The notes below the pieces were generated by a model that saw only the letters and a list, made by a program, of their open reading frames with translations, was not told the DNA's origin and ran no database searches. Position numbers and translations under genes: made by a program. From NCBI GenBank assembly GCA_945957125.1, contig CAMFJT010000004.1, positions 1 through 64,000 on the forward strand: a DNA stretch of 64,000 bases. The letters run 5' to 3'. Positions 11,579 to 52,029 of the stretch are shown here, piece by piece. Each line of letters begins with the position of its first letter. Within the stretch, counting starts at the first letter, position 1. Source of the stretch: an uncultured Rhodospirillales bacterium (lineage in GTDB: Bacteria; Pseudomonadota; Alphaproteobacteria; Reyranellales; Reyranellaceae).

Positions 11579-12478
11579 ATGGAAGGCTACGAGAAGCTGG
11601 GCTACATGGCGCTGAACGTCTCGGACGTCGCCCGCTCGCGCGATTTCTACCACAAGCAGGTCGGCCTGCAGCCGAGCGGCGAGGCCGAGGGGATCGCCTT
11701 CCTGCGCTGCAGCGAGGACCATCACAACCTCTCGCTTCACGCCGGCGGCCCGCCTGGCCTCAAGCGCGCCGGCTTCGAGATGAAGAGCGCCGCCGCGCTC
11801 GACCAGCTCGGCGCGCGGCTCGCGGCCGAAGGCATTGCGGTGTCCGAGGTGCCGGCCGACGAGCGCAAGCTGCTCGGCCTCGGCCGCGCCTTCCGCATCG
11901 CCGAGCCGCATACCGGCGCGACCTACGAGTTCTACGATCACATGCGCCAATGGGGCGGCCAGCCGTTCCAGCCGACCGTGGCCAAGATCCAGCGTCTCGG
12001 TCATTTCGTGCTCAAGGTCCCCGACTTCGACGGCGCGTGCCGGTTCCATACCGAAGTGCTGGGCTTCCGTGTCTCCGACATGATCGACGGCACGATCTGC
12101 TTCATGCGCTGCCATCCCAACCCGTACCATCACGGGGTCGGGCTCGGCCGCGCCAACGAGGTGCTGCTGCACCACGTCAACTTCATGGTGACGGAGGTCG
12201 ACGACATCGGCCGCGGCATCTCGCGCTTCAACAAGGCGCAGGTGCCGATCGTCAACGGCCCGGGCCGCCATCCGCCTTCGGGCAGCATGTTCCTGTACTA
12301 CCTCGATCCCGACGGCATCACCGTCGAGTACAGCTTCGGAATGGAGGAATTCCCGGCCGAAGGCGCGCGCAAGCCGCGCGTTATGGAACCGATCAAGGCC
12401 TCGATCGACTACTGGGACAGCTTCCTCGACCCGAGGAAGGCCACCGTCGGCGCGATCGAACGGATCGCCGCGGAGTGA
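11579..12478 (+). CDS. VOC family / extradiol ring-cleavage-type dioxygenase
   Basis: LGYMALNVSDVARSRDFYHKQVGL; two VOC repeats; LHHVNFMV; YYLDPDGITVEYSF. Confidence 0.88.
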   Translation: MEGYEKLGYMALNVSDVARSRDFYHKQVGLQPSGEAEGIAFLRCSEDHHNLSLHAGGPPGLKRAGFEMKSAAALDQLGARLAAEGIAVSEVPADERKLLGLGRAFRIAEPHTGATYEFYDHMRQWGGQPFQPTVAKIQRLGHFVLKVPDFDGACRFHTEVLGFRVSDMIDGTICFMRCHPNPYHHGVGLGRANEVLLHHVNFMVTEVDDIGRGISRFNKAQVPIVNGPGRHPPSGSMFLYYLDPDGITVEYSFGMEEFPAEGARKPRVMEPIKASIDYWDSFLDPRKATVGAIERIAAE

Positions 12479-12480
12479 CT

Positions 12481-12562
12481 TCATGCTCTTGCCGGACCGC
12501 GAGCCTCCGGCTCGCTCATGATCATGAGCGAGCCGGAGGCTCGCGGTCCGGCAAGAGCATGA
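12481..12562. repeat. 82 bp perfect palindrome (two 41 bp arms, no loop), REPIN-like
   Basis: TCATGCTCTTGCCGGACCGCGAGCCTCCGGCTCGCTCATGA followed directly by its exact reverse complement. Confidence 0.97.
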
Positions 12563-24788: not shown

Positions 24789-24854
24789 TCATTGGACCGC
24801 GCACATCCTGCGCGCTCGAGCTCATGAGCGCGCAGGATGCGCGCGGTCCAATGA
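24789..24854. repeat. 66 bp near-perfect palindrome related to 12481-12562
   Basis: 29 nt arms (28/29 complementary) around an 8 nt centre; right arm TCATGAGCGCGCAGGATGCGCGCGGTCC aligns with TCATGAGCGAGCCGGAGGCTCGCGGTCC. Confidence 0.92.
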
Positions 24855-28425: not shown

Positions 28426-28520
28426 CCGTCGTCCCGACCGGAGCGAAGCGACCTCTTCATACAACGTCCGCCGACATGAGGAGGTCCCTCGACTACGCTA
28501 CGCTCCGCTCGGGACGACGG
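28426..28520. repeat. Imperfect inverted repeat whose right arm enters the 3' end of the HyuA-like CDS
   Basis: CCGTCGTCCCGACCGGAGCGAAGCG / CGCTACGCTCCGCTCGGGACGACGG arms, plus ACCTC / GAGGT. Confidence 0.8.
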
Positions 28521-34095: not shown

Positions 34096-34234
34096 GATTT
34101 CCCTCCCCCGTCTTCGGGGGAGGTGGCGCGGTAATCCGCGACGGAGGGGGGCAAGAGTCGCGGCGTGCATGATTTTGACCCCCTCCGTCCGCGTAAGACG
34201 CGGCCACCTCCCCCGAAGACGGGGGAGGGAAATC
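34096..34234. repeat. ~139 bp inverted-repeat element, copy A
   Basis: Outer arms GATTTCCCTCCCCCGTCTTCGGGGGAGGTGG / CCACCTCCCCCGAAGACGGGGGAGGGAAATC; inner CGCGGTAATCCGCG and CCGCGTAAGACGCGG micro-hairpins. Confidence 0.95.
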
Positions 34235-51889: not shown

Positions 51890-52029
51890 CTTTCTCCTCC
51901 CCCGTCTTCGGGTGAGGTGGCGCGGTAATCCGCGACGGAGGGGTCATAGGCCACACCGATTCCGCGACTCATGCCCCCTCCGTCCGCGCAAGACGCGGCC
52001 ACCTCCCCCGAAGACGGGGGAGGAGAAAG
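51890..52029. repeat. ~140 bp inverted-repeat element, copy B
   Basis: Same architecture as 34096-34234: CTCCTCCCCCGTCTTCGGGTGAGGTGGCGCGGTAATCCGCGACGGAGGGG ... CCCCTCCGTCCGCGCAAGACGCGGCCACCTCCCCCGAAGACGGGGGAGGAG. Confidence 0.95.

Follow-up and report, generated by a model that had tools for sequence, protein, structure and literature searches.

Two palindromes in a Reyranellaceae genome are very probably REPINs of two subfamilies whose hairpin stems follow RAYT lineages

The window analysed here is a stretch of 64,000 nucleotides (contig CAMFJT010000004.1 of assembly GCA_945957125.1, positions 1 to 64,000) from an uncultured bacterium of the family Reyranellaceae, and it contains two long palindromes, at 24789-24854 and 12481-12562. 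It is very probable that both are REPINs, that is, pairs of inverted repetitive extragenic palindromes (REPs), moved by a REP-associated tyrosine transposase (RAYT) that reads the folded hairpin, with lineages that drift to new stems and inserted copies that decay. The hairpin nested in each arm is a real covarying structure, and the covariation arises between RAYT lineages, each of which has its own hairpin.

Results

The element at 24789-24854 (66 bp) has arms of 29 nt that are complementary at 28 of 29 positions, around an 8-nt centre (GAGCTCAT, 24818-24825). Folded as single-stranded DNA, it reaches -38.8 kcal/mol (z = -9.8), which none of 200 shuffled sequences equalled. Its right REP carries on the forward strand the micro-hairpin GCGCGCA-GGA-TGCGCGC (24828-24844), recognised from the fold and the covariation of the stem, followed at the outer foot by the tag GGTCC (GGACC on the other strand; 24845-24849, mirrored at 24794-24798) and by the outer tail AATGA (24850-24854, mirrored as TCATT at 24789-24793), which also stands beside a RAYT fragment (L313) and a RAYT gene (L285). 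The left REP is an inverted copy on the reverse strand, and its micro-hairpin (24799-24815) bears the sole uncompensated change of that arm, an A at 24803 in place of the family's G. The sister element at 12481-12562 is a perfect palindrome of 82 bp (arms of 41 nt, 41/41 complementary; z = -16.8), with the right micro-hairpin GCGAGCC-GGA-GGCTCGC at 12528-12544 and the outer tail GGCAAGAGCATGA at 12550-12562, both on the forward strand, the tail being mirrored at 12481-12493. An earlier note on this DNA had described self-complementary palindromes whose right arms differ at four positions forming two paired switches, and this is exactly what is seen: the two stems are two compensated pairs apart, at stem positions 4 and 7.

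We searched the genome holding the window (6.4 Mb, a draft in 432 contigs, 91.7% complete) with the REP unit TCATGA-GCGnnnn-GGA-nnnnCGC-GGTCC, leaving the stem positions free; two such units head-to-head make a REPIN. The first unit pattern matched at least 159 times with up to two mismatches and once when reversed, and the second matched at 234 places with up to one mismatch and nowhere when reversed. Within the window, there were 4 matches to the unit pattern versus 0.22 expected by chance. Judged by the surrounding DNA, the matches listed comprise at least 223 distinct units, 172 of them with all 4 + 4 free stem positions paired. Their stem types were CCAC (83), GGCG (51), CGCA (20), AGCC (5), AGCT (5), CGCT (3) and rarer others; these are proportions among the matches listed, about the 100 best per pattern, which favours perfect CCAC units, and are no census. 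At least 87 head-to-head pairs within 40 bp were found among the copies read, and nine places in the genome resemble the whole of 24789-24854 with up to three mismatches. The family has the GC-rich self-complementary stem and short loop by which Nunvar and colleagues recognise REPs, as well as the features of REPINs: closely spaced inverted REPs able to form one long hairpin, many dispersed doublets, and an association with RAYT genes. The outer tail goes with the stem, CAGC occurring with CCAC, GGCAAGA with GGCG and mostly AGCC, and AATGA with most CGCA and CGCT units. The outermost arms of the two window palindromes (TCATGCTCTTGCC versus TCATT) differ and still match themselves, as had been noted earlier, because each subfamily has its own outer tail. 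The earlier view of the two palindromes as variants of one element does not hold, since the elements at 24789 and 12481 are members of two subfamilies (CGCA with tail AATGA, and AGCC with tail GGCAAGAGCATGA) and not mutational variants of each other. Many contig starts, those of C72, C76, C127, C129, C153, C193 and C210, have a REP of the family no more than about 100 bases away, and the repeats probably break short-read assembly.

Covariation was measured against shuffles and against partner positions that had been slid; for the RAYT-flanking units, the first base of 4-nt loops was removed and these units were joined with those having 3-nt loops. In 55 distinct RAYT-flanking units, 98.4% of stem cells were paired, with a covariation score of 0.677 compared to 0.136 for shuffles and at most 0.118 for slid partners. 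The 82 distinct units of the genome itself gave 92.9% paired cells and a score of 0.529 (0.124 for shuffles, at most 0.138 for slid partners). When mutual information was corrected by the average product correction, five stem pairs stood among the top seven values. The covariation that had been suspected from two copies extends beyond them between lineages, but it fails within subfamilies, where uncompensated stem changes, the case that the earlier note had named as counting against its reading, outnumber compensated ones 38 to 4: copies in the genome with the fixed part exact showed 28 one-sided changes that leave the pair open and 10 that leave a G-U pair. Inserted copies are not visibly held to the structure, and they decay.

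RAYT relatives are present in 41 of 75 genomes of the same family, and the closest named ones (about 60-74% identity) belong mostly to Reyranella species and Enhydrobacter aerosaccus. There were 69 distinct RAYT loci, 52 of them with a REP recognised on both sides. The two stems were identical at 40 of these 52 loci, versus 9% expected for random pairs, and among the 12 loci with unequal stems, 6 differed by exactly one compensated pair, each REP being paired with itself. RAYT genes whose flanking REPs are one fully compensated pair apart are found at L237, L242, L282, L283, L295 and L296, and these loci are possibly snapshots of a stem switch in progress. The distance between RAYT proteins correlated with the distance between stems (Mantel r 0.50; none of 5000 permutations reached it, the largest being 0.20), a statistic that, like those from shuffles, is inflated by kinship among the genomes. 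Parsimony on the RAYT tree required at least 12, 7, 8 and 6 changes at pairs 7, 4, 5 and 6, with tip states nearly all paired. Relatives carry RAYT genes with AGCC REPs and, for CGCT/CGCA, RAYT genes longer than the fragment in this genome. The HUH motif NHVH occurs in 54 of 61 full-length RAYTs; WQ and YIxNNP vary among those of Reyranella.

Matching changes could also be made by quasipalindrome correction or template switching, in which one arm is copied from the other and no protein reads the hairpin. Long perfect arms such as those at 12481 (41/41) would be a good substrate, and the two REPs of a single RAYT gene do in some cases differ by one compensated step. However, many copies keep uncorrected one-sided changes, among them the one at 24803, and this explanation leaves the bracketing of RAYT genes, the conserved loop and foot, and the tracking of lineages unaccounted for. 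We consider it unlikely as the whole explanation; either process could still supply new stems for the transposase to act on.

The genome itself has three RAYT genes, one intact and two reduced to remnants, each adjoining a REP of the family. The intact gene (C112:101-658; protein P0001, 186 aa) is an open frame with ATGAGCGCCACGGAGTGGCGCGGTCC on both flanks. Its two nearest REP units have the same orientation, and the upstream one is half a REPIN cut by the contig end, since C112 (L031, G000) starts with apparent adapter sequence (positions 1-46, which we take to be Illumina Nextera). P0001 has the marks of a RAYT, a Y1 transposase with the HUH and catalytic Tyr motifs. It scores 83.3 bits against NCBIfam NF047646 REP_Tyr_transpos (curated cut-off 80) and 36.9 against Pfam Y1_Tnp (cut-off 23), and its sole PDB relative at E < 0.001 is TnpArep 4er8 (E = 2e-7), with which it shares the W-Q and the R of the tag-contact region (PMC6006769). 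The remnants are a broken RAYT at C38, preceded by a GGCG REP, and a fragment at C81, followed by a CGCT REP whose tail is AATGA; the lineage of the C81 fragment is the nearest to the window element at 24789.

The full 82-bp sister element occurs at many unrelated places in relatives, and the matches mostly end at, or a few bases from, the edges of the palindrome. At the site of a CGCT REPIN in C61, five relatives keep both neighbouring genes and a short spacer with no element. The neighbours of the 24789 site are kept together only in G050, where the intergenic region holds AAGTTGGACCAATAGCCCGC; this may be a palindromic target that stayed empty or the residue of a lost element, and it was not used as an empty site. 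For the 12481 site, orthologous neighbours were not found together in the relatives examined. Conversion of subtype in place was considered for an AGCC REP that G013 has in almost the same position behind the same gene, and was rejected: that REP has other flanks and another tail, which suggests a separate insertion. At the C61 REPIN site, G050 has another palindromic repeat (GTCCTGAGCGAAGCGAAGGACC ... GATCCTTCGCTGCGCTCAGGATGAC; L396, G050:C148, about 540-780 bases into the match), and repeats resembling it adjoin other genes in L256 and L265.

Host selection could instead keep the hairpins as RNA elements, such as terminators or stabilisers of mRNA 3' ends, and the compensatory changes would then come from RNA function. 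Both palindromes are intergenic and lie directly 3' of stop codons, the one at 12481 between convergent genes (stop codons at 12478 on the forward and 12563 on the reverse strand), and effects of this kind have been proposed for REPs elsewhere (PMC3733652). This explanation is nevertheless very unlikely, as stem identity follows the RAYT lineage and not the host site, dispersed copies change mostly one-sidedly, relatives have an orthologous site without the element, and a search of Rfam with both palindromes gave no match to an RNA family. An unrelated family of miniature inverted-repeat transposable elements with a DDE transposase, beside RAYT genes by chance, would fit the inverted-repeat architecture taken alone but is hardly credible given the 52 RAYT loci with REPs on both sides, whose stems mostly match and follow the RAYT tree.

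The foot of the hairpin carries a tag of its own. Among 119 RAYT-flanking units, the tag was GGACC in 62, GGAGC in 35, GGGGC in 14 and GGGCC in 6, so that 117 of 119 have GGRSC. Feet like GGAGC/GGACC also flank RAYT relatives of about 47-53% identity in several other phyla.

Two other kinds of long repeat lie in the window. Two copies of an imperfect palindromic repeat of a separate family (CTCCCCCGTCTTCGGGGGAGGTGGCGCGGTAATCCGCG...; arms 80-84% complementary) are at 34096-34234 and 51890-52029, and stretches somewhat like it adjoin orthologous genes in relatives (L260, L328). At 28426-28520, an inverted repeat (CCGTCGTCCCGACCGGAGCGAAGCG, 92% complementary, arms 45 nt apart) seems to represent a third family of palindromic repeats.

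Discussion

We propose that each REPIN is a non-autonomous mobile element of two inverted REP hairpins, in which the whole palindrome would be the mobile unit. The RAYT (TnpA_REP, an HUH/Y1 single-strand DNA transposase) would most likely recognise, in single-stranded DNA, the 7-bp hairpin together with its GGA-type loop and its G[G/C]TCC foot; the recognised unit would then be cleaved and copied or moved. Recognition would depend on pairing in the stem and on a constant loop and foot, with the base pairs at stem positions 3-7 free to differ, so that RAYT/REP lineages could drift to new stems by one compensated pair per step. After insertion, copies would decay without visible constraint. Most likely, being copied is what holds the element to its structure; since the structure is held where copying occurs and inserted copies decay, we attribute the constraint to transposition rather than to any function that single copies would have for the host. 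The earlier note had offered a nested structure that is either selected or copied by a structure-reading transposition mechanism; the bracketing of RAYT genes and the stems that track the RAYT tree favour the transposition half, and the idea that ordinary copies are held to the structure has not stood.

The genome comparison speaks directly to the family, its covariation, its association with RAYT genes, the tracking of lineages, and presence or absence at one orthologous site. Besides the kinship that inflates the statistics, several points weigh against our proposal. Excision, insertion and cleavage were not observed in this comparison of genomes. The draft genome yielded no intact RAYT for either the CGCA or the AGCC subfamily: for the former it has only the fragment with the CGCT REP and the tail AATGA, for the latter no remnant. 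The literature defines REPs by GT[AG]G at the hairpin foot, and this head stands at neither foot in any of the 119 RAYT-flanking units.

REPINs, RAYTs, their coevolution and compensatory changes in REPINs have been described (PMC3116915, PMC2817692, PMC3686654), and what is unusual here is a GGRSC tag in place of the GT[AG]G head. Published RAYT-linked REPs have that head, except for atypical structures in two classes (PMC6006769). The REPINs of Pseudomonas fluorescens (Bertels and Rainey 2011, PMC3116915) likewise consist of two inverted REPs forming a long hairpin, are dispersed between genes and are linked to a RAYT, whereas here the GT[AG]G head is absent, the GGRSC tag and GGA-type loop are conserved, and the host is an alphaproteobacterium. 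The RAYT/REP classes of pseudomonads and stenotrophomonads (Nunvar 2010, PMC2817692; 2013, PMC3686654) also pair related RAYTs with differing self-complementary stems in apparent coevolution, but all of them have the GT(A/G)G head; the 2010 search found qualifying RAYTs in gammaproteobacteria only. The CGTC-tagged REPs of alphaproteobacteria (Di Nocera 2013, PMC3733652) are small palindromes too, mostly in head-to-head pairs, but have a CGTC motif, stems of 8-9 bp, loops of 4-5 nt and no reported transposase, unlike the RAYT-linked units here, with their GGRSC tag and stems of 7 or 8 bp. The intact RAYT shares NHVH, WQ and YIxNNP with TnpA_REP subclass 2.4 (Bertels group 4; PMC6006769) and is of similar length (186 versus a median of 194), a likeness in motifs and length to a subclass described with GT[AG]G REPs.

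By analogy with GTAG in Escherichia coli, GGRSC may act as a guide. We tentatively suggest, as a possibility we would not yet favour, that GGRSC-tagged REPs form an undescribed third tagged REP superfamily, served by a separate RAYT clade that spans several phyla (alpha- and gammaproteobacteria, Myxococcales, Planctomycetota, Verrucomicrobiota and Bacteroidota), in which a nearly free paired stem is read, specificity lies in the loop, foot and tail, and stems switch pair by pair without loss of recognition. The figures of PMC3733652 on terminal inverted repeats of other RAYT-like genes, which were unreadable here, could already depict this type.

These results indicate that a REP can be linked to a RAYT without having a GT[AG]G head, and searches that demand it would miss such REPs. 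With many stems and a nearly constant loop and foot in the genomes of one genus, the family is a natural experiment on what a RAYT reads, and as some RAYT genes have REPs that are one swapped pair apart, the recognition code could be tested in vitro.
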